In this document: one piece after another, positions 15,576 to 41,709 of the stretch
Position numbering within the stretch: the first letter of the stretch is position 1
How the letters are laid out: every line of letters begins with the position of its first letter
Assembly: GCA_023954745.1 (NCBI GenBank)
Contig: JAGSHC010000004.1
Span: 1-64,000, forward strand
Direction of reading: 5' to 3'
Source: Deltaproteobacteria bacterium
GTDB lineage: Bacteria > Myxococcota_A > UBA796 > UBA9615
Length of the DNA stretch: 64,000 bases
Translations under genes and position numbers: made by a program
Notes under the pieces: generated by a model
What the model saw: only the letters and a program-made list of their open reading frames with translations
What the model was told of the DNA's origin: nothing
The model's database searches: none

Positions 15576-15875
15576 ATGATCGAGCGGCTCGTCCTCCTCT
15601 CACTACGTCCCGACTTCGCCACGCCCGACGGGCGCGCCGAGGTGGTCGCCCGCGCTGAGGAGGTCATCGCGACCCTCCCTCAGGTCCTCGAGGTTGCCGG
15701 CAGCGCGGCCGCGGACGAGCGCACCGCTGGCGCCTGGGATGTGTGCCTGCGCATCCACTTCGCCAGTCTCGACGACGTCGCCGCCTACCTCCCCGAGGCA
15801 AAGCACCGCGCGCTGGTGGATGACTTTCTCACCCCCCGCATCGACGCTCTCAAGGCCTTCAACTTCGAACGGTGA
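15576..15875 (+). CDS. Dabb-like (stress-responsive alpha/beta-barrel) small protein
   Basis: 99 aa; MIERLVLLSLRPDFATPDGRAEVVARAEEVIATLPQV...YLPEAKHRALVDDFLTPRI pattern of Dabb domains. Confidence 0.65.
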   Translation: MIERLVLLSLRPDFATPDGRAEVVARAEEVIATLPQVLEVAGSAAADERTAGAWDVCLRIHFASLDDVAAYLPEAKHRALVDDFLTPRIDALKAFNFER

Positions 15876-17032
15876 CGACCTTGCCTCGACATCTCTCCCT
15901 CCTGTTGCTCGCTCCCGCGCTCCTCTTCTTGGGCTGTGTCGACACGCTCCAGCCATGCGACTTCGACGGCCTGACGGGCTCGGTGGGCAACTGCGCGCTC
16001 CCCGAGGGGGACTGCTTCATGGACCTGGACGAGGACGGGATCGCAGCCCGTTATCCGAACGAGACTCGCTCCCCCGGAGTGGAGTGCGACGACGAGGATT
16101 CGGTGACTGAGGGTCAGTACGGCGACTGCGACGACACCGACGACAACAACTTCCCCGGCAATCCCGAGGTCTGCGACGGCCTCGACAACGACTGCTCGGG
16201 ACTGCCCAACTTCGACGTCGAAGAAGCCGAACTGGACACCGACACCGGGCGTCCGCGATGCGCCGCCGGGGCTCGAGTCCAGGTGTTCCTGCGCGGAGGG
16301 GGTTCACTCGCCGGCGCCGACCTGAGCGCGCGCTCCAGCTCTCTGGAGATCGATCCCGGGACGCCGCTGACCGGCGAGCTCCGGCTCCGGGCGTTCTTCT
16401 CGTTGGACGGCGAAGCGGAGCTCTCGGCCGTGGCCGTCGCCTCCTGGGAGGACCCCGAGAACTACGACGAGGAGCACCCCATCCTCATCAGCGATCCCTT
16501 TGGCGGCGCGCCCGCAGAGATCGACATCGACTGCGAGCCCTTCGAGGAGCGGGGGTACTGCGACATCAGCGTCACGTCCTTCGGGGGGCTCTCGGCCCCG
16601 GCCGCCGGCGCCGAGCGCACCGAGTACCTGACCATCGCCGCCGCGACCGAGACTGGCGCTCCCCATCTCGCGGCGCTCAGCTCCCCCAACTACTGCTGCG
16701 AGGGACCGGACTGCCAGTCGGGGGGGCCGCAGGAGGGCCCTCCCTGCGATGAGGTCTATGCCCACCAGGTCGAGTTCGAGGGCGACATCATCACGGACGG
16801 GGACTTGCGAGACCTCACCGAGCTCGACCTCGGCGGATGCAGCTCCTTCGGGGCGGCGCGCGTGCAGGAGCTCGCCGAGGCGTACGGCGGGAGCGACGGT
16901 CCACCGGGTGGGCCGCCAGAGCGGTGCAGCGTCATCGAGTCGGAGGACTGTCTCCCCTTCTATCGGCCGAAGCCCATCGGCTGCCAGATCATCCCCATCA
17001 CCTTCGAGGGCACTGAGGAGGCGAAACGATGA
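15872..17032 (+). CDS. Lipoprotein with MopE-like putative metal-binding motif
   Basis: Lipobox LFLGC; GDCDDTDDNNFPGNPEVCDGLDNDC motif; GTGA overlap with upstream stop. Confidence 0.75.
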   Translation: MTTLPRHLSLLLLAPALLFLGCVDTLQPCDFDGLTGSVGNCALPEGDCFMDLDEDGIAARYPNETRSPGVECDDEDSVTEGQYGDCDDTDDNNFPGNPEVCDGLDNDCSGLPNFDVEEAELDTDTGRPRCAAGARVQVFLRGGGSLAGADLSARSSSLEIDPGTPLTGELRLRAFFSLDGEAELSAVAVASWEDPENYDEEHPILISDPFGGAPAEIDIDCEPFEERGYCDISVTSFGGLSAPAAGAERTEYLTIAAATETGAPHLAALSSPNYCCEGPDCQSGGPQEGPPCDEVYAHQVEFEGDIITDGDLRDLTELDLGGCSSFGAARVQELAEAYGGSDGPPGGPPERCSVIESEDCLPFYRPKPIGCQIIPITFEGTEEAKR

Positions 17033-18394: not shown

Positions 18395-19756
18395 TCACCG
18401 CCCGACCGGCGCCGTCTCTTCCAGCGTCGTCACGAGCTTTGCGTGGTGGCGCTGCAGAGCGATGCCGGCGTCTGCGAGGAACTTCGTGGGCAGCACACCC
18501 CCGCAGAAGATCAGCACCGCGTCATTGGGTAGGACCTCGCCGGTCGCGCTGTTGGCCTCAGCCCCCGCGCCCACCAACACGACCCGGTCGGCGCCAATGT
18601 CAGCCACCTCGGTCAGGGTGCGCATCTTGACGTGGCCAGCCGCCACCGACGCCGCGAGCTTCTCCTGGTTCTTCTGCTTCGCCCGGACGATGTGCTCCTT
18701 GCGGTAGCTCAAGGTCACCCGGCAGCCCTCCTCCGCACCGAGGGTGATGGCTGCCTCCACCGCTGAGTCGCCTCCGCCCACCACCAGAACGTGCTTGTGG
18801 CGGTACTGCTCGGGCTCCAGCAGGCGGTAGGAGACCTTCTCGCGGTCCTCCCCGGTCACGCCGAGCTTGCGGGGGGTTCCCCGCCGACCGACACACAACA
18901 GAACGGCGCTGGAGTGCAGGGTGCGCTCGCCGGTGATCACCTCGAAGCGCCCGTCCTCGAGACGCTGCACCGATGTGACCGGCTCTCCCTCGGAGACGTC
19001 GAGCCCCGCATCGTCGATGGCCGCGCCGAGCTCCTCGATGAGGGTCTCCTTGCTGATGGTCCCGCTCTTTCGGCGCTTCTGGCCCGGCAGCCGGTAGCCG
19101 TGAGCCATGACGATCTTGCCGCGGGGGTAGTGCCGAATGGCTCCGCCGAAGACGTCCTGCTCCAAGATCACGACGTTGGCATGGGCCTTCTTGGCCTCGA
19201 GGCCTGCGGCGACCCCGGCAGGACCCGCGCCCACGATGATGAGGTCAAGGCCCTCGGACGTGGCCTTGCGCCCAGACAGCGCCTGCCTCGTGGCCTGCGT
19301 TCCCTGCTCGATGGCATTGGCGATGAGGCCCATGCCCCCGAGCTCGCCGGCCACGAAGAGTCCTGGCACGTCGGTCTGGAAGTCGGGCCCCACCTTGGGC
19401 AGGTCCACGCCGCGCTTCTCACTGCCGAACACCAACTCGATGGCGCTGCGCGGACAGGCCGTGGCGCAGGCTCCGTGCCCAATGCAGGCGGTGGCGTTGG
19501 CGAGCCGCGCTTGCCCGCCGACGATGGCGAGGACGGCGTGCTCGGGGCAGGCCGCCAGACACGCGCCCGAGCCCATGCACTTCGCCTCGTCGACCCAGGG
19601 CCGTATGCTCACCGGCTCGTGCCGGCCTGCGGCCTTCGCCGCCGCCAGCTCGGCCATGGCCTCGCGCTCCTCCTTGCGGAAGGCGAACCACGCGGGGAGC
19701 ACGAACACCACGAGAATCGCTCCCACCGCGATGAGATACGGCATCGCCTCGTTCAT
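18395..19756 (-). CDS. Membrane-tethered FAD/NAD(P)-dependent oxidoreductase with two N-terminal Fe-S motifs
   Basis: N-terminal TM helix; CMGSGACLAACPE and CIGHGACATACPR; LIIVGAGPAGVAAG and VLVVGGGDSAVEAAI dinucleotide-binding motifs. Confidence 0.88.
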   Translation of the reverse strand: MNEAMPYLIAVGAILVVFVLPAWFAFRKEEREAMAELAAAKAAGRHEPVSIRPWVDEAKCMGSGACLAACPEHAVLAIVGGQARLANATACIGHGACATACPRSAIELVFGSEKRGVDLPKVGPDFQTDVPGLFVAGELGGMGLIANAIEQGTQATRQALSGRKATSEGLDLIIVGAGPAGVAAGLEAKKAHANVVILEQDVFGGAIRHYPRGKIVMAHGYRLPGQKRRKSGTISKETLIEELGAAIDDAGLDVSEGEPVTSVQRLEDGRFEVITGERTLHSSAVLLCVGRRGTPRKLGVTGEDREKVSYRLLEPEQYRHKHVLVVGGGDSAVEAAITLGAEEGCRVTLSYRKEHIVRAKQKNQEKLAASVAAGHVKMRTLTEVADIGADRVVLVGAGAEANSATGEVLPNDAVLIFCGGVLPTKFLADAGIALQRHHAKLVTTLEETAPVGR

Positions 19757-20667
19757 GGTGTGCCTCCCCAGGCGGCGAGCAGGTCCCCGACCTCCTTGAG
19801 GCTCCCACCGAACACCACGGCCCCCGCGACGTGCACGAGCACGATGACGTACATGGCTCCGGCGAGGGGCCGATGGAAGAGGTGCCAGTAGCGGAGGAGG
19901 CGCCGGGCGACCTGACTCAGTTCGAGGCCGCGGATGAGCCTGATCTGCCGGAACAGGAGCTCCCTGACGCTGCGCTCCACGTCCGAGGGCAGAGAGGCGG
20001 CGGTCAGAGCGGCCCGGATCCGTCGGCGGCGCTGTCGGTACAGGCCGAGACCGCGGGCGACGTCAGCCAGAGAGGTCGCCTCGATCTCCATCTCCTTCAA
20101 CTCCAACATCAGGGAGCCCAGCTCCTCGACGCTCGCGTCCGCCGTAGACAACACCAGGCTCCCGTGGAGGTCTGCCAGCTCAGCTCGGGCTTGTTGAAGC
20201 CCGAGCGCCCCCCCACCCGTTGCCCGCGGGAGCAGCCCGTAGACGTAGCGGCCGAACGTGCCGCTCAGGGCGACCAGGGTCATGCACCAGAACCCCACGG
20301 CGATGAGTCCGGTGGGCCAGGTCAGGCCCGCGTGGAGGAGGATGAAGATCGGACCAAAGACGCCGCAGATGATGTGAAAGCGCAGCCAACCGGCCATGGA
20401 GCCCAGCCAGTGCCACCCCATCAGCTTCTTGCGCAGCGTGTAGAGGTTCATGACCACCATGAGGGTGGTGCCGAGCAGACCGATGGTCACGCCCCATCCG
20501 TGACCCGCCGACAGCAGCGGGTCGAGCTCGTCCAGCCCTCGTTCGTAGCGGGGCAGCAGGTAGTACGACCGACCGAGCCAGAGGGTCGCCAAGGCCAGCA
20601 CGGCGAGTCCTCCCGCGAACATCGCGGTGGCCGAGGTCGCGAGCAGGCGACGGAGGGCGCCGATCAA
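19753..20667 (-). CDS. Multi-pass membrane protein, b-type cytochrome-like
   Basis: Several TM helices with intramembrane His (GWHWLG, LRFHIICG, LLHAGL, WHLFHRPLAG, LVHVAGAV); 4-bp overlaps with flanking genes. Confidence 0.72.
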   Translation of the reverse strand: MIGALRRLLATSATAMFAGGLAVLALATLWLGRSYYLLPRYERGLDELDPLLSAGHGWGVTIGLLGTTLMVVMNLYTLRKKLMGWHWLGSMAGWLRFHIICGVFGPIFILLHAGLTWPTGLIAVGFWCMTLVALSGTFGRYVYGLLPRATGGGALGLQQARAELADLHGSLVLSTADASVEELGSLMLELKEMEIEATSLADVARGLGLYRQRRRRIRAALTAASLPSDVERSVRELLFRQIRLIRGLELSQVARRLLRYWHLFHRPLAGAMYVIVLVHVAGAVVFGGSLKEVGDLLAAWGGTP

Positions 20668-22004
20668 CGTCCCACCTTCACGAGCCAGCTCGCGCGGAGG
20701 AGCACGGTGTGGGCGGCGTTCCAGCGGTCGAGGTCGAGGTCATTGTCGAAACGGTACCCCGCCGCGACGGTCACGCCGATGGGGGTGAGTACATCGAGCC
20801 ACAGGTCCGTGGCGACGGTAGGCACCACGGTGCCGTGTTCATTGGCTCCGACCCACATGCGCACCTCGGCCTCGATGGAGAGCGGCCCCGACGGATCGGG
20901 GGCGAGCCAACCCCGCAGGCCCAGCTCGGCGCGCCAGCGCCCCGACCACCTCAGGGCACCACCGGTGGCGAGCAGATCGAGCCGTCCCCCGCCGAGGGAG
21001 TAGGCGCCACCTTCGAGGGTGACCCGTGCCGAGCGCTCCCGCTCCACGGTGCGGTGGTTGTAGCGAGCGCGCAGCGCAAAGCGCAGGGGCACCTCACCCA
21101 CGAGGGGCTTGAGTTGGACCGAGCCGAGGATCTGGTGGGTCGGGCCGTCGGTGGCCAGGTCCCAGGGGGTGGGAGCCGTGGGCGCGGCCCCGGTGGTGCG
21201 CTGCCACCACCGCACCAGCGATGGGTCCCGCTGCACACCCTGAAGCCAGCTGTGCCCCGCGTGCATGGACCAGCCGACCCGCACCCGCAGCACCTTGACG
21301 GGAGTGAAGGTCGTCCCCAGGCCGAGCTCCGAGAAGCGCACGGGGGCGCCCTGCCCGCCCGCTTCGATCTCCATGCGCCCCGCGACGTCGATGAGCTTCT
21401 TGAACTCGAAGCGCCCCGTGAGGCGACCCGCGAGACGGTCGATGCCCTGGGCCCCGCCGCCGACCTCGCCCACGAAGCCGACCTGCACCATGCGACCGCG
21501 CCAGCGGAGGATCGGTCCACCACCGAAGCGCGGTGCAGGGGACGTGGTCCAGATGTCCGGCATCTCGCCCAGCCAGCCTCCCACCTCGAAGAAGCCCTTG
21601 GGCCGCGCGAGGAACTGCACCCCGTCCACGAGGCGCCAGCCACCGTCGATGACCGCGCTGCGACCGAGCTCCGCGCGCCACTTGGGCGTCTCCAACCGGA
21701 CGCCGAGGGCACGGATGCGCAGCCGGTCCACCGAGCCCGTCGCGGGACGGAGGCCGACCCGGCCCGCGAACAGCACCGAGGTGGTGATGCCCGTGGTCTC
21801 GTTGGGGATCACCAGGCGCAGGCGGTCCGAGAGGGTCAACTCAAAGCCAGGCCCACCGTGGTGTGGAATGTCGATGAGCGCGCCGATGCTCAGGCGATTG
21901 CGCAGCCGGATGGGGCTGTCGGCGGCGTCTGCGCTCCAGGCGGGGGCTGGCGCGAAGAGAGCGACGAGCAGGAGGCAGAGCGTGAGCTTTGTTGGCACTC
22001 CCAT
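20664..22004 (-). CDS. Predicted outer-membrane beta-barrel protein
   Basis: Signal peptide MGVPTKLTLCLLLVALFAPAPAWS; alternating amphipathic strands throughout; sits between multiheme cytochrome and membrane cytochrome genes. Confidence 0.65.
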   Translation of the reverse strand: MGVPTKLTLCLLLVALFAPAPAWSADAADSPIRLRNRLSIGALIDIPHHGGPGFELTLSDRLRLVIPNETTGITTSVLFAGRVGLRPATGSVDRLRIRALGVRLETPKWRAELGRSAVIDGGWRLVDGVQFLARPKGFFEVGGWLGEMPDIWTTSPAPRFGGGPILRWRGRMVQVGFVGEVGGGAQGIDRLAGRLTGRFEFKKLIDVAGRMEIEAGGQGAPVRFSELGLGTTFTPVKVLRVRVGWSMHAGHSWLQGVQRDPSLVRWWQRTTGAAPTAPTPWDLATDGPTHQILGSVQLKPLVGEVPLRFALRARYNHRTVERERSARVTLEGGAYSLGGGRLDLLATGGALRWSGRWRAELGLRGWLAPDPSGPLSIEAEVRMWVGANEHGTVVPTVATDLWLDVLTPIGVTVAAGYRFDNDLDLDRWNAAHTVLLRASWLVKVGR

Positions 22005-22006
22005 CG

Positions 22007-22699
22007 CTAGTCCTCTTCGCCGTTGGGGTGGCAACTGAGGCAAGCACCCGACTCATAGACGTACCCCGCGACCTCACCGAGGTGCTCGTCAGCCATGTCG
22101 GCCTGACGGTGCGCGTGGCAGTCGGTGCAGGTGAACGCCGTGTAGTTCCCGGTGCTCGCCTGGGGGTGGCAGTCCCCGCAGGCGGAGACGCCCTCGTGAG
22201 GGGTGGGGAAGAACTCGCGGTGGTCGAACTCGGCGTCGAACCAGTCGCTGGTGTTGTGGCAGTCCTCACAGGCGCCAGCGAAGTGCTCCTCGGGGCGCGC
22301 GTGGCAGGACTCACACGTCGTGCTGATGTCGCCGAAGTCGTTCTCGTTGAGGTGGCAGTCGAGACAAGGCACGTTGTCGTGACCGAGCTCCAGCGGGAAG
22401 AAGTCGTGGTCCACAATGGCGCCGACGTCCCAGCCCATCTCGTTGTGGCAGTCGATGCAGTCCTGTCCTGGGTAGTGCTCCAGGGACAGGCGCTCGTCTT
22501 CGTGGCAGCCGCCGCAGGTGGTCGAGATCGTGTTCTCGACCGAGCTGCCGTGGCAGCCCGTGCACGTTGCGTCCTCATGGGTCAGGTGCTGGCCCCGCAA
22601 CGGCCAGTGCACAAACTCCTCGTACACGGGCGCCTTGCAGCTCGACGCCACCAGCAGCACCACGGTCACGGCAACGATCAGCAGGGGGAGCGGCTTCAT
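22007..22699 (-). CDS. Nonaheme c-type cytochrome, lipoprotein
   Basis: Nine CxxCH motifs (CTGCH, CGGCH, CIDCH, CLDCH, CESCH, CEDCH, CGDCH, CTDCH, CLSCH); lipobox VASSC. Confidence 0.92.
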   Translation of the reverse strand: MKPLPLLIVAVTVVLLVASSCKAPVYEEFVHWPLRGQHLTHEDATCTGCHGSSVENTISTTCGGCHEDERLSLEHYPGQDCIDCHNEMGWDVGAIVDHDFFPLELGHDNVPCLDCHLNENDFGDISTTCESCHARPEEHFAGACEDCHNTSDWFDAEFDHREFFPTPHEGVSACGDCHPQASTGNYTAFTCTDCHAHRQADMADEHLGEVAGYVYESGACLSCHPNGEED

Positions 22700-24753
22700 T
22701 CGAGCTCTCCGTGGGGGAAGTTCGCGTCTTCCCACGTGTAGGGGCGATGGCAGGTGTCGCAGTCGCGGGTCAGCGGGTCTCTGTGGAGGGCGTCACCCGG
22801 CGCATCGAACGTGTGGCAGGAGCCGCAATCCGCCGGCGTACCGGGGTATCCCGCCGCGTGGCAGTCGTCGCAGCCGGCCACCCGGTGGGACCCACGGAGG
22901 GCGAAGCCGGTCTGAGCGTGGCGGAACGTCGTGCGCATCCAGTCCTTCTCCTCGTGACACGTGCCGCACTGGGTGCCGAGCAGACCTCGGTGGGGGTCGT
23001 CGTCGAGGTGGCAGTCGATGCACTCGGGGCCGGCGGTCGATGACGGCTCGGCGGGGCCGTGGCAGTCGTCGCAGGGAAGCACGCTGTGCATGCCGAGCAG
23101 GGCGAAGCCGGTGGAGGCGTGTCCCTCTCGGCCCAGCGTCGCGTCGCGCCAGTCCGTGGGCTTGTGGCAGTCCGCGCAGACCCCCTCGTAGTGGTTGGGC
23201 GGCACGTCGTCTTCGTGGCAGCTCTCGCACGCTGTCTCGGCCTGGTCGAAGCGCGGACCTTCGCCTACGTGGCAGTCCTCGCACTCGGCCTGGGCGTGCT
23301 TGGCGATGAGCGGCCAGCCCGTGGAGTCGTGGTCGAAGGGGAGCGGCGGCTCCCACGCGTTCTCGTCGTGGCAGGTGGTGCAGGCCAGCTCGGCGACGCT
23401 CTCGTCGTGGGGGTTGTCGTCGCTGTGGCAGTCGCGGCAGGTGGCGTAGTCGAGCCCCTCGAGGACCTTCTCTTCGCCCTCCCCGTGGCACTCGGCGCAC
23501 TGCACCTCGACGTGGGCGCCCACCAGCGCGAACTGGGTGCGGGCGTGGTCGAAGGCGTCGACGTCCCACAGGCCGTCGGTGACGTGGCAGTCCTGGCACG
23601 CGTCGGGGGCGAAGCGCGCGTCGTGGCGGTCTTCGTGGCAGTCGGCGCAGTCCGCGAAGGGCAGGCCGGCGAAGGTGGCAGCTGGGCCTTCGCCATGGCA
23701 GTCCTCGCAGGTGACCTCCTGGTGCGCGTTCCGCAGCGGGTAGTTGGTCTCGTCGTGGTCGATGACCATGCCCTCGAACCCGTCGGCCACCTGCTGATGG
23801 CAGCTGTCGCAATCGCGAGGCTCGAACTGGCCTTCGTGCACGTCCTCGTGGCAGGTGGAGCAGCGCTCGTGGGGCAGCGGGGCGTACTGGGCCTTGGCGC
23901 CCTTGCCGTGGCAGGACGCGCAGGACACGTCGTTGTGCACGCCCACGAGGGCGAACTGGGTGCGCTTGTCGTGGTCCCAGGGCCGCACGTTCCAGTCGGG
24001 CTTGCGGTCGGTGTGGCAGTCGGTGCACTGCTGCTTGGCGAACTGCTTGCGGTGCGGGTCGTCGTGGCAGTCGGTGCAGAGCTCGGCCACGGTGGGCACG
24101 AACTTCGTCTCCTTGTGGCAGGAGTCGCACTCGACGTCGTCGTGGGCGTCGTGCAGCGGGTAGTCGGCCTGCTTGCTGTCGTTGTGGTCGAAGATGCTCA
24201 GAGCGATGGGCAGGGCGTCCCAGTCGTCGGCGTCGTGGCAGGTGCGGCAGTTGTTCAGCAGCTCCCGGGTGCTGGCGCCAGCGCCGTGGGGCTCGTCGTG
24301 GCAGGACTCACAGCTCGACTCGAGGCCCGTGTAGTCCTCCGGCGCGTCCTGGTGGCACTCGTTGCACTCCAGCGGCTTGTGTTCGCCGGTCAGGGCAAAC
24401 CCGGTGCTCTGGTGGTTGAAGGTCTCCTCGCTCAGCTGGACGAGCTCGAAGTCGCGGCCCTTGTGATCACCGTGGCAAGAGGCGCACTCGTCACCCAGAT
24501 TCGCGTGAAAACCCGTGCGGGTCTGCACCTGGTCCTCGACGCGCTCGTGGCAAGCCATGCAGCGGGCCGGAGTCACGCCGGCGCCGGGCTCGTGGCACGA
24601 GGTGCACTTGAGGATGGTGTCGAGGTCGGCGTGGTCCTCGGCCAGCGGCCCCGGGCTGACGAAGCCACCAAGCCCCTGCGCCCCAGCGAGGGCCGGGGAG
24701 AGGGTGAGGAGAGCGCAGACGAGGAGGAGGAGCCGCTTCATGGGGTCAGCCAT
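22696..24753 (-). CDS. 27-heme c-type cytochrome built of tandem triheme modules
   Basis: 27 CxxCH motifs counted by eye; signal peptide MKRLLLLVCALLTLSPALAGA; repeated unit [DH..T.FAL.G.H....C..CH-n-C..CH.D.H-n-C..CH]. Start 24753 or 24741. Confidence 0.93.
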   Translation of the reverse strand: MADPMKRLLLLVCALLTLSPALAGAQGLGGFVSPGPLAEDHADLDTILKCTSCHEPGAGVTPARCMACHERVEDQVQTRTGFHANLGDECASCHGDHKGRDFELVQLSEETFNHQSTGFALTGEHKPLECNECHQDAPEDYTGLESSCESCHDEPHGAGASTRELLNNCRTCHDADDWDALPIALSIFDHNDSKQADYPLHDAHDDVECDSCHKETKFVPTVAELCTDCHDDPHRKQFAKQQCTDCHTDRKPDWNVRPWDHDKRTQFALVGVHNDVSCASCHGKGAKAQYAPLPHERCSTCHEDVHEGQFEPRDCDSCHQQVADGFEGMVIDHDETNYPLRNAHQEVTCEDCHGEGPAATFAGLPFADCADCHEDRHDARFAPDACQDCHVTDGLWDVDAFDHARTQFALVGAHVEVQCAECHGEGEEKVLEGLDYATCRDCHSDDNPHDESVAELACTTCHDENAWEPPLPFDHDSTGWPLIAKHAQAECEDCHVGEGPRFDQAETACESCHEDDVPPNHYEGVCADCHKPTDWRDATLGREGHASTGFALLGMHSVLPCDDCHGPAEPSSTAGPECIDCHLDDDPHRGLLGTQCGTCHEEKDWMRTTFRHAQTGFALRGSHRVAGCDDCHAAGYPGTPADCGSCHTFDAPGDALHRDPLTRDCDTCHRPYTWEDANFPHGELE

Positions 24754-25399
24754 CGTCTCCGCTCTCGGAGTCCACGGAGCCCGTGGTCGCGACGTTGGCC
24801 TCGAAGACGGCGAGGATGTCGGAGTTGTAGACGCTGTCGATCTCGATGACCCCCTCTGCGTTCGGGGTGCCTTGGTCTGGGTCGACCCCATCCAACCAGA
24901 CATCGAGGTCGAAGAGGAGGAAGAGCTGGTTGAGGGTGTCCGCCTGTAGGGCGACGTCGCTCTCCACCTCGAACTCCCACTGCTGGGAGCTCTCGATGAC
25001 GAAGTCCTGCCCGCCGGTGCTCACTCCCTCGATGCGGATCGACGGGCCGCTGGCCGGTTCGGACTCGACCTCGAGGGTGCAGACGGAGTCGATGGAGAGG
25101 TCGATGGTGCCGAGGTCGGTGCCGAGGAGCAGGTCGGTGGTGAAGTCGCCCTCGTAGTCCGTCTCGCTGTCTTCGCCTCCGCCGGCGCAGGGCTCCATCT
25201 CCACTTCGGTGAGGAACAACTGCGCGCTGCTCAGATCCGCTACCTCGCGAGCCGAGGTGATGAGCGCTCCTTCGCCAGCGACGGTGAGCGCTGCCTGGAA
25301 GGCATTGCCGCTGTCGGTGCCGTTGCCGCCGGGAGGAGCGCAGCCGGCGATGAGGAAGCACAAGAGAGCAAAGGAGGGCAGCCGGATCGGGTCACTCAT
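24746..25399 (-). CDS. Lipoprotein, DUF4382-like beta-rich domain (tentative)
   Basis: Lipobox LIAGC; SSAQLFLTEVEMEPC ... LDLSIDSVCTLEVESE-like strands; 8-bp overlaps with both neighbours. Confidence 0.65.
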   Translation of the reverse strand: MSDPIRLPSFALLCFLIAGCAPPGGNGTDSGNAFQAALTVAGEGALITSAREVADLSSAQLFLTEVEMEPCAGGGEDSETDYEGDFTTDLLLGTDLGTIDLSIDSVCTLEVESEPASGPSIRIEGVSTGGQDFVIESSQQWEFEVESDVALQADTLNQLFLLFDLDVWLDGVDPDQGTPNAEGVIEIDSVYNSDILAVFEANVATTGSVDSESGDDG

Positions 25400-26255
25400 C
25401 GGAGTCTCCTGTCGGAGCGCTGGGGTAGCTGGTCACAGGAAAGAGCTGAAACGCAAAGTGATGCACGGCCTGATCGCCATGGGCCGCACCGTCGAGTTGC
25501 AAGACCTCCTGCCGGAGCTCGAACAGCCGCTGCTTGAGGTGCCTGACCTGGGACTCGGTGAGACGCAGAGTCACGCCGCCCACCTCGCGCTCCGGGAGCG
25601 GCACCTGGTCCATGGCCTCCTCGGCGCGGCGGAGCATCTGCTGATGAAAGCGGCGCAAGGAGAGGAGACGGAGCTCTGGGCCCGTGGTGAGCAGTGGGGT
25701 CTCCTGCTGGAGGCGGCCGTCCGCGTCCCGGCCGAGCATGCCGAGGTCCTGAAGCAGCGCCAGGGCCTCTGATGCCTCGCTCGGCTTGATGTGGGGACGC
25801 ATCTGATGCGCGATCCACTGCGGGTCCTCGCGAAAGTCGCTCCGGGCCACCAACTCTCGGATGGGGATGCAGTACCAACGCGCGTAGTAGTCGTACTGAG
25901 AGCGCTGCAACTTCTGCGTCTCGCGATAGGGCGGCAGTGCGCTGAGCACGTCGTACCACTGAGACCGCTCCTCGGTAGAAGCGGCCTGGTTCATGCGGAC
26001 GAGGGCCCGGAAGTACTTCGCCTCCTGCGGGCCCAGCTCGAAGGCCTTGGCGCAGCGACTGGCGGTGTCGTCGGACAGGTTCCGGTCACCATCGATGACG
26101 TGCTTGAGGTAGCTCGGCGAGCCGAAGCCCGCCTTTCGGCTGAACCATCGGTACGAATAGCTTCGACTCTGCGCACGCAGGTGCTCCCAGGCGTCGCGCA
26201 GCCAGGCGCGGTACTCCAGGTAGTCGTAGATTCGTGGGAGGTCGTGAGTACGCAT
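25392..26255 (-). CDS. TIGR02147 / DUF4423-family protein (putative HTH regulator)
   Basis: IYDYLEYRAWLRDAWEHLRA...YSYRWFSRKAGFGSPSYLKHVIDGDRNLS and EREVGGVTLRLTESQ...LKQRLFELRQEVLQL are typical of TIGR02147 proteins. Confidence 0.85.
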   Translation of the reverse strand: MRTHDLPRIYDYLEYRAWLRDAWEHLRAQSRSYSYRWFSRKAGFGSPSYLKHVIDGDRNLSDDTASRCAKAFELGPQEAKYFRALVRMNQAASTEERSQWYDVLSALPPYRETQKLQRSQYDYYARWYCIPIRELVARSDFREDPQWIAHQMRPHIKPSEASEALALLQDLGMLGRDADGRLQQETPLLTTGPELRLLSLRRFHQQMLRRAEEAMDQVPLPEREVGGVTLRLTESQVRHLKQRLFELRQEVLQLDGAAHGDQAVHHFAFQLFPVTSYPSAPTGDSDE

Positions 26256-26434
26256 CGTCCAGAAACACTATGCCCAAGAACACATCCAGGCACTGCTTTT
26301 CATGGATTAAGTGTACGCCGGTGAGTACGCGCGATCGCCAACGGGGTGAGTACACGAAAGTGCCAGCTGGCACAGGGGCGGCGATCTGTACTTTGCCAGA
26401 GGCACTCTGCCGCCACCCGTACCGGGGTGAGTAC
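26244..26434. promoter_or_regulatory. Cluster of four GTGAGTAC direct repeats plus a 14-bp palindrome upstream of the TIGR02147/cytochrome operon
   Basis: GTGAGTAC at 26244-26251, 26321-26328, 26346-26353, 26427-26434; palindrome GTGCCAGCTGGCAC at 26360-26373. Confidence 0.55.
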
Positions 26435-27597: not shown

Positions 27598-28581
27598 GTG
27601 CCCGGCCCCATCAACTACCTGCTCCTCGCCCTCCTCGGCGTCGCCCAGCTCTGGGCGGTCACCGCCATCCTCCTCGGTGGAGGAAGCGCGGGCGACCCAT
27701 CCCTCCTACGCGTTCTCCTCGCCGTGGCCTACGTCACCTGCCTCGCGGCCGCGGCTTGGAAGGCCCCTCACCTCACCGCCCTCGGGACCGCCGCCGCCCT
27801 CTTCGTCCTCGTCGGCGGCTGGTACTCCACCATCACCCCGTCCCACGAACGTCAGTGGAGCGAGGACCAGTCCCGCCTCGCCCACCCCGAGATCCACGGC
27901 GACATCCTCACCATCGCCGACCTCCGCGACTTCCGGTACCGCTCCGAGTCCGACTGGGATGCCCGCTGGCGCGACGCCACCTACGACCTCCGCCAACTGA
28001 AGCGCGGCTGGTTCATCGTCGAACACTTCAGCGAGTTCGAAGGTGCGGCTCACGCCATGGCGACCTTCGAGTTCGATGGGGGCCAGTTCCTCGCCGTCTC
28101 TGTGGAGATCCGCAAGGAGCAAGGGGAGAGTTACTCCCCCCTCCGCGGCCTCTTCCGCCAGTACGAGGTGATGTACGTCGTCGCCGACGAGCGCGATGCG
28201 CTGCAGCTACGCACCAACTACCGACCAGACAGCGACCTCTACCTCTACGAAGTCGACGCCGGCCCCGAGGCCACCCGCGCCTTCCTCGAGGACATGATGG
28301 CCCGCGCCGCCCGCATCGCTGCCGAGCCGGCCTTCTACAACTCCCTCGTGGACACCTGCGCCAGCAACCTCGCCACCCACCTGACCCGGGTCTCCGAGGA
28401 GTCCATCTCGCCCCTGAGTCCACGGGTCCTGCTTCCGGGCTACAGCCACCAGCTCGCCTGGGACCTCAAGCTCCTCGGCGACGACCCCCTCGAAGAGCTC
28501 AAGGCGGCCGCACGCACGCGACCCCGCGCCGCGGCGGCAAAGGACTCTGAGGACTACTCGCTGCGGATTCGCGGGCTCTGA
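27598..28581 (+). CDS. DUF4105 (Lnb N-terminal periplasmic domain-like) membrane protein
   Basis: RDFRYRSESDWDARWRDATYDLRQL ... FDGGQFLAVSVEIRKEQGESYSPLRGLFRQYEVMYVVADERDALQLRTNYR; N-terminal TM helices. Confidence 0.85.
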   Translation: MPGPINYLLLALLGVAQLWAVTAILLGGGSAGDPSLLRVLLAVAYVTCLAAAAWKAPHLTALGTAAALFVLVGGWYSTITPSHERQWSEDQSRLAHPEIHGDILTIADLRDFRYRSESDWDARWRDATYDLRQLKRGWFIVEHFSEFEGAAHAMATFEFDGGQFLAVSVEIRKEQGESYSPLRGLFRQYEVMYVVADERDALQLRTNYRPDSDLYLYEVDAGPEATRAFLEDMMARAARIAAEPAFYNSLVDTCASNLATHLTRVSEESISPLSPRVLLPGYSHQLAWDLKLLGDDPLEELKAAARTRPRAAAAKDSEDYSLRIRGL

Positions 28582-40009: not shown

Positions 40010-40843
40010 TCAGGTTCGCGACCGGGTGGCCCGGCCCGCCCCCCGAGACACCCGACGTCGGAGCAGCGGAAGCAGCAAGAGAAGCGCGAGACCCCAGCCT
40101 CCCCTCCCCTCCCCCGTCGAGCAACTGCAGCCGCTGCTCAATCCAGCGACCGCGTCGCCCGAGCCAGCGTCCGGGTTCAGGGCGATCTGGCCGGGCAGCG
40201 CCAGCGCTCCCGCGTCGCGCTCGGGCAGGTCCACGAGGCCCGAACCGTCGAGGTCGTCGAAGAGCGCCGACTCCTCCACCACGGCGTCCACGAGCACCGC
40301 ATGGGCGGGGGACTCGGTCGTGATGGTGGTGAGAGCGCCGTCGAGCAAGCCCAGGGCGGCGGGGTTGAGCCAGTCGGGCGACGCGAGCTCCAGAGCCAAG
40401 GCGGTGTCCTCATCGACGGCCAGGGCGGTGTCGACCACGACGAGCTCGACGTCCCCGAGCAGCACGGTGGCCTCCATCGTCCCCGCCTCGACCCCGTCTT
40501 CCCAGCTGGCCTCCAGGGCCGCGTCCCCGCTGAAGCGCACGACGACCCCGCACCAGGCTCCCGCGGGAATCGAGACCGATAGGGGCGCGAGCGCAAGGTC
40601 GGTGGTGCCCCCCACCGGCGTCGTCACATCCGTCCCGGAACACGCCGCAAAGCCCACCCACTGCACCGGAAGCTCGGCCTTCGTGATGTTGAAACCATCG
40701 GCGGCGGCGAGGGACATGGCCACCACCCCGGGGTTCCCCACGGCGATGCCCTCGTGGGTGTCGTCCGCCGGGTCCGTGACGCACGCGGCGAGGAGCGTGC
40801 AGAGGGCCAGGGCGCCCCAGAGAGGTTGGCGGGAGCGGGTCAC
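40010..40843 (-). CDS. Lipoprotein (DUF4382-like domain, tentative) with MYXO-CTERM-like tail
   Basis: Lipobox LLAAC; FNITKAELPVQWVGFAAC; C-terminus SSGCSCSTGEGRGGWGLALLLLLPLLRRR. Confidence 0.68.
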   Translation of the reverse strand: MTRSRQPLWGALALCTLLAACVTDPADDTHEGIAVGNPGVVAMSLAAADGFNITKAELPVQWVGFAACSGTDVTTPVGGTTDLALAPLSVSIPAGAWCGVVVRFSGDAALEASWEDGVEAGTMEATVLLGDVELVVVDTALAVDEDTALALELASPDWLNPAALGLLDGALTTITTESPAHAVLVDAVVEESALFDDLDGSGLVDLPERDAGALALPGQIALNPDAGSGDAVAGLSSGCSCSTGEGRGGWGLALLLLLPLLRRRVSRGAGRATRSRT

Positions 40844-41709
40844 GACGAGGCTCCCGGGTCGAGGGGCGGTTCGGACAGCGGGAAGAGGGCGAAGTGCGCC
40901 TGATACACCTGCTCGCGGTCACCGTCGGCGCCATCGCAGAGGTCGAGGATGCGCTCTTGGAAGGCGTCGAACTCCCGCTTGAGGACCGGCACGAGGGCCC
41001 GGGGAATGCAGGCGGTGACAGCGCAGAGGTGTCGCTCCTCGCGGGTGGATCCGGTGATGGATCCGCGGGCCAGGTCGAGCATGCCGTCGTGGTAGTTGCG
41101 CGCGGCGAGGCCGGCCACCTCGTGGGGGGTGGCGAGACTCACGTCCACCGGGTGAGTCGCGCCGGTGTCGGTCTGCGCGAGCATGCCCAGCGAGAAGAGC
41201 AGATCCAGCGCGCTCTTCGCCTGGGTCCTCGTGATCCTGGGGCGGAGGGAGCGGGCGATCCAAGCCGGGTCGGCCTCGAAGTCGTCCCGCCGGGCGAGCT
41301 CGTGCAACGCCGAGTGGTACCAGCGCGAGATCACCTCGAAGCCCTTCCCCTCGAGCGACCGGGCCTCGCGAAAGCGGCGTGACGCCGAGATGTGCTGCCA
41401 CGCCTCGTTCTGCTCGTCGGCGGTGCTCGCCTGCCCGAGGTCCACGAGGTGCCCGAAGAAGCGAGACTCTTCCGCCGAGAGCCCCATGGCGCGGACGAAC
41501 CCCTGCACGTTGGCGGGGCTGAGGTTGCGCTTTCCCTGAGCCACGAGGAGCAGCAGGGACGGGTTCTTGTGGCCGGCCTTGCGGGCGAAGAGGCGGTGGG
41601 AGTAGCGAGGATTGCTCGCCTTCTTCGCCTCGAACCAGTCGGCGAGGAACCGACGAAAGTCCAGATAGCCATAGATGGTCGAAGCGCCTGGCACGAACCA
41701 TGGATACAC
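40840..41709 (-). CDS. TIGR02147 / DUF4423-family protein (putative HTH regulator)
   Basis: IYGYLDFRRFLADWFEAKKASNPRYSHRLFARKAGHKNPSLLLLVAQGKRNLS; GTGA overlap with downstream lipoprotein. Confidence 0.85.
   Translation of the reverse strand: MYPWFVPGASTIYGYLDFRRFLADWFEAKKASNPRYSHRLFARKAGHKNPSLLLLVAQGKRNLSPANVQGFVRAMGLSAEESRFFGHLVDLGQASTADEQNEAWQHISASRRFREARSLEGKGFEVISRWYHSALHELARRDDFEADPAWIARSLRPRITRTQAKSALDLLFSLGMLAQTDTGATHPVDVSLATPHEVAGLAARNYHDGMLDLARGSITGSTREERHLCAVTACIPRALVPVLKREFDAFQERILDLCDGADGDREQVYQAHFALFPLSEPPLDPGASS

Follow-up and report, generated by a model that had tools for sequence, protein, structure and literature searches.

A probable PCC3-type electron conduit and its candidate flavoprotein partner in a deltaproteobacterial gene cluster

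Introduction

Seven genes that lie head to tail in the genome of a Deltaproteobacteria bacterium (g1–g7; assembly GCA_023954745.1, contig JAGSHC010000004.1) include two multiheme cytochromes, a barrel-like protein, a membrane protein and a flavoprotein—which raises the question of whether they encode a route for electrons across both membranes and, if so, whether that route is of a known kind. The window is the whole stretch of DNA analyzed here, i.e., the first 64,000 nucleotides of that contig. A preliminary description of it had proposed such a route and had recognized no named system of the MtrCAB or OmcB type. The kind that proves relevant is porin-cytochrome complex 3 (PCC3), which the open-licence passages of the first report define by four genes, e.g., Slit_1446-1449 of Sideroxydans lithotrophicus ES-1, that encode a porin, periplasmic and extracellular multiheme cytochromes and a five-helix protein of 300 amino acids (aa) that contains SGXXG and the motif WX3HX13H twice (He et al., 2017; PMC5566968). 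These complexes are widespread, include multiheme cytochromes that are among the largest known, and are usually discussed as possible iron oxidases; their electron exchange with the outside is a proposal only, in every organism (PMC12442390). We conclude that the cluster probably encodes a complete PCC3-type trans-envelope electron conduit together with a dedicated cytoplasmic flavoprotein, g7.

Results and Discussion

Identity of the Conduit

The arrangement as first described, a minus-strand set of seven genes, was reproduced in its coordinates (Table 1), in all six junctions (from g1 to g7, overlaps of 8, 8, and 4 bp, a gap of 2 bp, and two overlaps of 4 bp) and in its heme motifs, which we recounted at 27 and 9 CxxCH in g3 and g4. 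Conservation of gene order in relatives, which the preliminary description had named as a check, was likewise found: the order g1–g7 is kept in a genome of the same family (L037/L152) and g3–g7 in one of the same class (L039), while parts of the cluster occur with g6–g7 on the other strand in L147 and L148 and reordered in L040. In more distant relatives, g6 adjoins a cytochrome with 15–27 or more hemes, and the same gene kinds, rearranged, are present in other phyla. Because the order recurs in same-family and same-class genomes, and the gene kinds in other phyla, chance grouping is excluded.

The membrane protein g6 carries the clearest signature. It has about 300 aa and five helices in an N-in/C-out topology, with the motifs W94-x3-H98-x13-H112 and W261-x3-H265-x13-H279 and SGTFG at 135–139, and so has each sequence feature published for the PCC3 inner-membrane protein. 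Its invariant histidine pairs (H98/H112 and H265/H279, 14 residues apart in the third and fifth transmembrane helices) suggest a probable di-heme cytochrome b in which, because of the five-helix topology, H98/H265 would hold the inner-side heme and H112/H279 the outer-side heme. Both WX3HX13H motifs are present in 67 of the 72 g6 homologs of named loci. A profile built solely from relatives in the window's phylum matches Sideroxydans (L132) at 1e-53 and Gallionella (L072) at 2e-58; it scores 308 bits at the one named Myxococcales locus (L105) as against 110–207 bits for the other named loci listed, in line with the assignment of the window to Myxococcota. A search of 284 genomes of the phylum gave g6 matches in 77. 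Neither g6 nor the barrel g5 has a match in Pfam or NCBIfam (for g6, none in Pfam up to E = 0.1).

The preliminary description had predicted that g5 is an outer-membrane barrel and would have given up its proposal had structure prediction yielded none. Our model (A3, from 7 sequences; mean predicted local distance difference test score, pLDDT, 77; predicted template-modeling score, pTM, 0.71) folds residues 33–444 into 22 antiparallel strands with a poorly predicted helical loop at 250–286, and nearly all of its top 50 Foldseek matches in the PDB are outer-membrane beta-barrels, among them OprD/Occ porins, chitoporins, MOMP, and usher pores. As the TM-scores are moderate (0.3–0.5), strand number and pore size are approximate; the model nonetheless predicts that g5 is a real beta-barrel, as expected of a PCC3 porin. 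Compared directly by profile, the window barrel has no significant match to the Beta- and Gammaproteobacterial PCC3 porins, and its link to them is stepwise only: the window family matches further barrels within the phylum (E 5.7e-7), which match Bacteroidota barrels (2e-10); the latter match those of Gammaproteobacteria (4.9e-9), and these in turn those of Betaproteobacteria (4.5e-99).

The two cytochromes match class III/c7-type families. With 27 CxxCH motifs and a signal peptide, g3 lies inside the range of 21–27 hemes given for the PCC3 periplasmic cytochrome in the passages of PMC10734462 and, judged by these features, is of that type; 27-heme homologs occur in L037, L039, L040, L147, and L148, and a sequence search against the PDB gave no match. 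For g4, which has the lipobox LLVASSC, counterparts with 8–12 hemes occur in L039, L147, and L148. At four other loci (L065, L069, L082, L073), very large cytochromes adjoin the set, with 67 CxxCH in Thiodiazotropha-type symbionts and 74 in an Azonexaceae metagenome-assembled genome.

We therefore file the cluster as PCC3, because of the g6 motifs, the g6 profile matches to Sideroxydans and Gallionella, and the stepwise barrel link: by sequence, g3–g6 fit, except that the heme number of g4 is slightly under the published range. Alike are the porin, the periplasmic multiheme cytochrome, and the homologous inner-membrane protein with its motifs, and the lipoprotein cytochrome g4 would take the place of the extracellular one. 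The cluster differs in that its flavoprotein gene, outside the published four-gene definition, stands in the same operon, that its barrel is small (22 predicted strands vs. up to 42), that its putative surface cytochrome has 9 hemes rather than 10 or more, that all genes are on one strand, and that its host belongs to none of the groups in the first report (Alpha-, Beta-, and Gammaproteobacteria).

Other conduits share the plan of a barrel with periplasmic and surface multiheme cytochromes, namely MtrCAB/MtoAB and the Geobacter OmbB-OmaB-OmcB (pcc) clusters (PMC4245776), but these have 10/10 or 8/12 hemes where the cluster has 27 and 9. MtrCAB/MtoAB was rejected on the 27 hemes and on the DmsE/MtrA-type model (25.2 bits against a cut-off of 192.2); the Geobacter and Anaeromyxobacter pcc clusters (the latter of two genes, with 12–14 hemes) were rejected on heme number, 27 in g3 against 8–14. 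Thus the set is indeed not of the MtrCAB or OmcB type, as first described, since heme number and family score differ, but a new, unnamed conduit it is not, since it matches PCC3. A match to a characterized complex had been named in advance as grounds for abandoning the proposal; what was found is a named complex that is itself functionally uncharacterized.

Table 1. Features of the cluster and their positions in the window.
Feature	Position	Strand	Description
g1	26255-25392	minus	TIGR02147/DUF4423 protein, putative regulator; accessory, lineage-specific
g2	25399-24746	minus	Lipoprotein (lipobox LIAGC); accessory, lineage-specific
g3	24753-22696	minus	27-CxxCH cytochrome, 685 aa, signal peptide; PCC3 periplasmic cytochrome by sequence
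g4	22699-22007	minus	9-CxxCH lipoprotein cytochrome, 230 aa; putative PCC3 "extracellular" cytochrome
g5	22004-20664	minus	Outer-membrane beta-barrel, 22 strands predicted; PCC3 porin by model
g6	20667-19753	minus	TTG start; five-helix membrane protein, two WX3HX13H, SGTFG; PCC3 inner-membrane protein by sequence
g7	19756-18395	minus	Anchor helix, two-motif ferredoxin domain, apparently permuted thioredoxin-reductase-like FAD/NAD(P) domain; proposed fifth PCC3 component
GTACTCAC repeats (four)	26244..26434 (26427, 26346, 26321, 26244)	minus	Candidate operator

The Flavoprotein g7

The last gene had been read as a membrane-tethered oxidoreductase with flavin adenine dinucleotide (FAD) and iron-sulfur (Fe-S) centers, and this anatomy was borne out: g7 combines a single N-terminal helix with two ferredoxin motifs and a FAD/NAD(P) fold, and its Pfam matches are to 4Fe-4S and pyridine-nucleotide-oxidoreductase domains. 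Across 106 homologs, C60, C66, C70, C91, C97, and C101 are invariant, position 63 varies (Ser in 52, Cys in 40, Thr in 10, Ala in 4), and position 94 is His in 105, so that the second ferredoxin motif reads CxxHxxC, with a nearly invariant histidine where a cluster cysteine is expected. CxxHxxC-like motifs occur in some actinobacterial ferredoxins. The g7 clusters may be of the 3Fe-4S kind or 4Fe-4S with a histidine ligand.

The flavoprotein part is unusual in a second respect. In thioredoxin reductases, a C-terminal piece binds FAD; its counterpart in g7, at residues of about 115–165, precedes the first Rossmann motif. When this piece was moved to the end in a test sequence, the TIGR01292 match, which had covered positions 2–251 of 300 at 83.9 bits, covered 2–295 at 100.6 bits, and the YpdA score rose from 128.5 to 140 bits. 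The g7 model (pLDDT 87) matches structures of YpdA, ferredoxin-NADP reductase and thioredoxin reductase (best E 6e-21, about 280 columns). On good but not final evidence, the flavoprotein part thus appears to be circularly permuted relative to thioredoxin reductase. R352 and R358, conserved in 105 and 104 of the 106 homologs, could bind the 2'-phosphate of NADPH.

Since those three families share the fold of the flavoprotein part and are the closest named relatives, g7 might be an ordinary thioredoxin- or bacillithiol-reductase relative that stands beside the conduit by chance. We regard this as very improbable: g7 scores far under the thioredoxin reductase and YpdA family cut-offs, has its FAD-binding C-terminal piece at the front, carries a fused ferredoxin domain and anchor helix, and co-occurs and is fused with g6 (below); moreover, none of the 106 homologs has a CxxC in the flavoprotein part, which rules out a disulfide reductase.

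Two other protein architectures contain g7 or part of it. At L056 (1561-5502), g7 continues in one open frame into a C-terminal extension of roughly 850 aa that by eye is proline-rich and then TPR-like. Proteins of ~700–800 aa (e.g., hits G078:C2:5701-6636 and G049:C63:83259-84257) match the g7 profile solely from about position 119; the match takes in the permuted flavoprotein part, with its displaced FAD piece, but not the ferredoxin part.

Association of g6 and g7 Across Phyla

We scanned the named genomes with a g7 profile and kept the best 80 loci, which come from Gamma-, Beta-, Alpha-, and Deltaproteobacteria, Bacteroidetes, Ignavibacteria, Zixibacteria, Nitrospirae, and others. At 70 of them g6 lies no more than 5 kb from g7, at 65 a cytochrome with at least 15 hemes lies no more than 9 kb away, and at 56 there are two large cytochromes; some of the loci without these neighbors lie on short contigs or near contig ends. 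Because the scan started from g7, these counts measure how dedicated g7 is to PCC3 and not how frequent it is in PCC3.

Counts by genome point the same way. In the window's phylum, 84 of 269 genomes matched the g7 profile at E <= 1e-40, and g6 is present in 53 of the 57 with a strong full-length g7 (E <= 1e-100; Fisher P = 2e-32, for a universe of 269, where the genome samples for g6 and g7 differ somewhat and relatedness makes the genomes non-independent). Among 80 genomes of the family around the Sideroxydans genome, g6 occurs in 33, g7 in 34, and both in 32 (P = 8e-19), with 28 of 35 g7 genes within 2.5 kb of g6.

The two are even fused as one protein at nine loci in eight genomes, in the order g6-g7 (L164, L166–L170) and in the order g7-g6 (L165, L020/L050). 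The first type may be a single event, as it is confined here to one family (f13), and the second comes from two other families. Since g6 is N-in/C-out and an additional helix separates the two parts in the g6-g7 fusions, either order leaves the flavoprotein in the cytoplasm.

Around these genes, cytochrome c maturation (ccm) genes adjoin g7 at L058. A Sel1/ankyrin-repeat-like protein with a signal peptide, identified by eye, recurs beside g7 (L086 11287-13278; L047 3085-4704; L055 12142-14463). A g6-like domain also forms the C-terminus of long multi-4Fe-4S proteins (L042 5634-7850, L048 7430-10405), whose N-terminal part looks, by eye, like the cyclic-nucleotide-binding type, an alternative input module.

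Direction of Electron Flow

How would such a conduit work? In the route that we propose, electrons would pass from NAD(P)H to FAD and two Fe-S clusters in g7, from there to the inner-side and then the outer-side heme b of g6, onto the 27-heme periplasmic wire g3, and through the barrel g5 with the 9-heme lipoprotein g4 to an acceptor outside, for which Fe(III), humics, oxygen and a partner cell are candidates. The conduit would then act like an NADPH oxidase or ferric reductase stretched over both membranes, shedding reducing power at the surface. By analogy, the likeness is that a cytoplasmic NAD(P)H flavoprotein would feed two b hemes bound through two HX13H pairs, and that relatives have fused forms; the two pairs are present in g6 (H98/H112, H265/H279), and g6 has no match to the family in question (FRD, PF01794). 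The cluster differs in its thioredoxin-reductase-type flavoprotein with Fe-S motifs and in its next carrier, a multiheme cytochrome c.

A route from NAD(P)H to the surface had already been drawn in the preliminary description, and it fits all tests (the g6 histidine pairs, the g6-g7 fusions in both orders, the real barrel), while the donor, the direction, the acceptor and the surface exposure of the 9-heme protein are what we infer. We prefer electron export with moderate confidence, because outward oxidation of NAD(P)H runs with the membrane potential and reduction of NAD(P)+ by outside iron runs against it.

Several points weigh against the conduit as proposed here. The function of each PCC3 is so far a proposal; NAD(P)H is suggested as the substrate of g7 by its fold; g6 may exchange electrons with quinone; and g4, a putative surface protein, has 9 CxxCH, slightly under the published range of 10–85 hemes for the extracellular cytochrome. 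Moreover, where a genome of the family around the Sideroxydans genome holds two or three copies of g6, it often has a single g7, so that some PCC3 copies may run without it.

Such extra g6 copies without g7 are what one would expect from PCC3 as first proposed, where an external donor, e.g., Fe(II), would pass electrons through g6 to the quinone pool, and g7 would be a side branch for the production of NAD(P)H or reduced ferredoxin. This is the published model (PMC5566968), and the complex occurs in iron oxidizers such as Sideroxydans and Leptothrix. However, the fusions of g6 with g7 and their close co-occurrence give g7 more than a side role, reduction of NAD(P)+ with electrons at the level of iron is uphill and against the membrane potential, and iron oxidation is not known from the groups of many g7 carriers (Saprospiraceae, Flavobacteriaceae), so that we consider electron uptake here rather unlikely. 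More doubtful still is that nothing leaves the cell, i.e., that the cytochromes are a periplasmic electron store or feed a reductase there, with some other use for the barrel. A role as capacitor has been discussed for heme-rich proteins (passages of PMC10734462 and PMC11495043), but the barrel and a second large cytochrome go with the set across phyla and g4 has a lipoprotein signal, which makes either role improbable.

Electron export with g7 as the cytoplasmic entry, if extended to other carriers, leads to a broader and only tentative proposal, to which we give somewhat less than an even chance: PCC3 in general may export electrons at the expense of NAD(P)H, through an NADPH-oxidase-like unit (permuted ferredoxin-flavoprotein plus di-heme cytochrome b) followed by 20–30 hemes and a barrel, and may serve redox balancing or surface reduction, and not Fe(II) oxidation, in Bacteroidota, Ignavibacteria, Proteobacteria, Myxococcota, and others. 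As a fifth component, g7 would supply the missing cytoplasmic end, and direction and electron source become testable with purified proteins; its link to NAD(P)H, if true, changes ideas of what these conduits do. In the open-licence passages of the PCC3 literature we found neither this flavoprotein partner, its fusions, and its permuted fold (an earlier mention elsewhere is possible) nor PCC3 in Myxococcota or Bacteroidota. Within those passages, g7 looks like a previously unlisted component, and the range of PCC3 is extended well past the Proteobacteria of the first report.

Accessory Genes and Genomic Surroundings

The preliminary description had counted g1 and g2 as members of the conduit set. 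Its reading of g1 as a TIGR02147 protein stands (235 bits, cut-off 50), but both genes lie outside the conserved core: they head the cluster in close relatives only (with a 64% identical g1 copy in L037), and g2 homologs occur in 7 of 67 genomes of the class. Because pairs of a TIGR02147 gene and an overlapping lipoprotein gene recur elsewhere in the source genome, g1-g2 looks like a regulator/lipoprotein cassette added to PCC3 in this lineage, and we reject both as core conduit parts. One further pair lies in the window (40010-41709, minus strand) and another on contig C481 (L003), and the pairing seems to be a recurrent cassette. TIGR02147 was not found in the open-licence full-text literature searched.

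Four copies of GTACTCAC stand at the 5' end of the cluster, the last overlapping the first codons of g1. Their spacings of 25 and 77 bp are kept upstream of g1 in L037, and the pair spaced by 25 bp occurs once in the 7.1-Mb source genome; conservation of the copy nearest g1 may be coding, as this copy sits in the coding start. At L148, where a TIGR02147 gene adjoins the 27-heme gene, the repeat was not found, and a sigma-70 promoter scan found nothing. The obvious candidate to bind the repeats is g1, which would regulate the operon through them.

Elsewhere in the source genome (481 contigs), a contig break divides another PCC3-like copy: a 26-heme cytochrome and the N-terminal part of a barrel lie on C76 (L150), and the C-terminal part of the barrel, g6, and g7 lie on C86 (L041). 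On the plus strand of the window, the neighbors are a protein with a MopE-type copper-binding motif (15875-17032) and one with an Lnb N-terminal domain (27598-28581).

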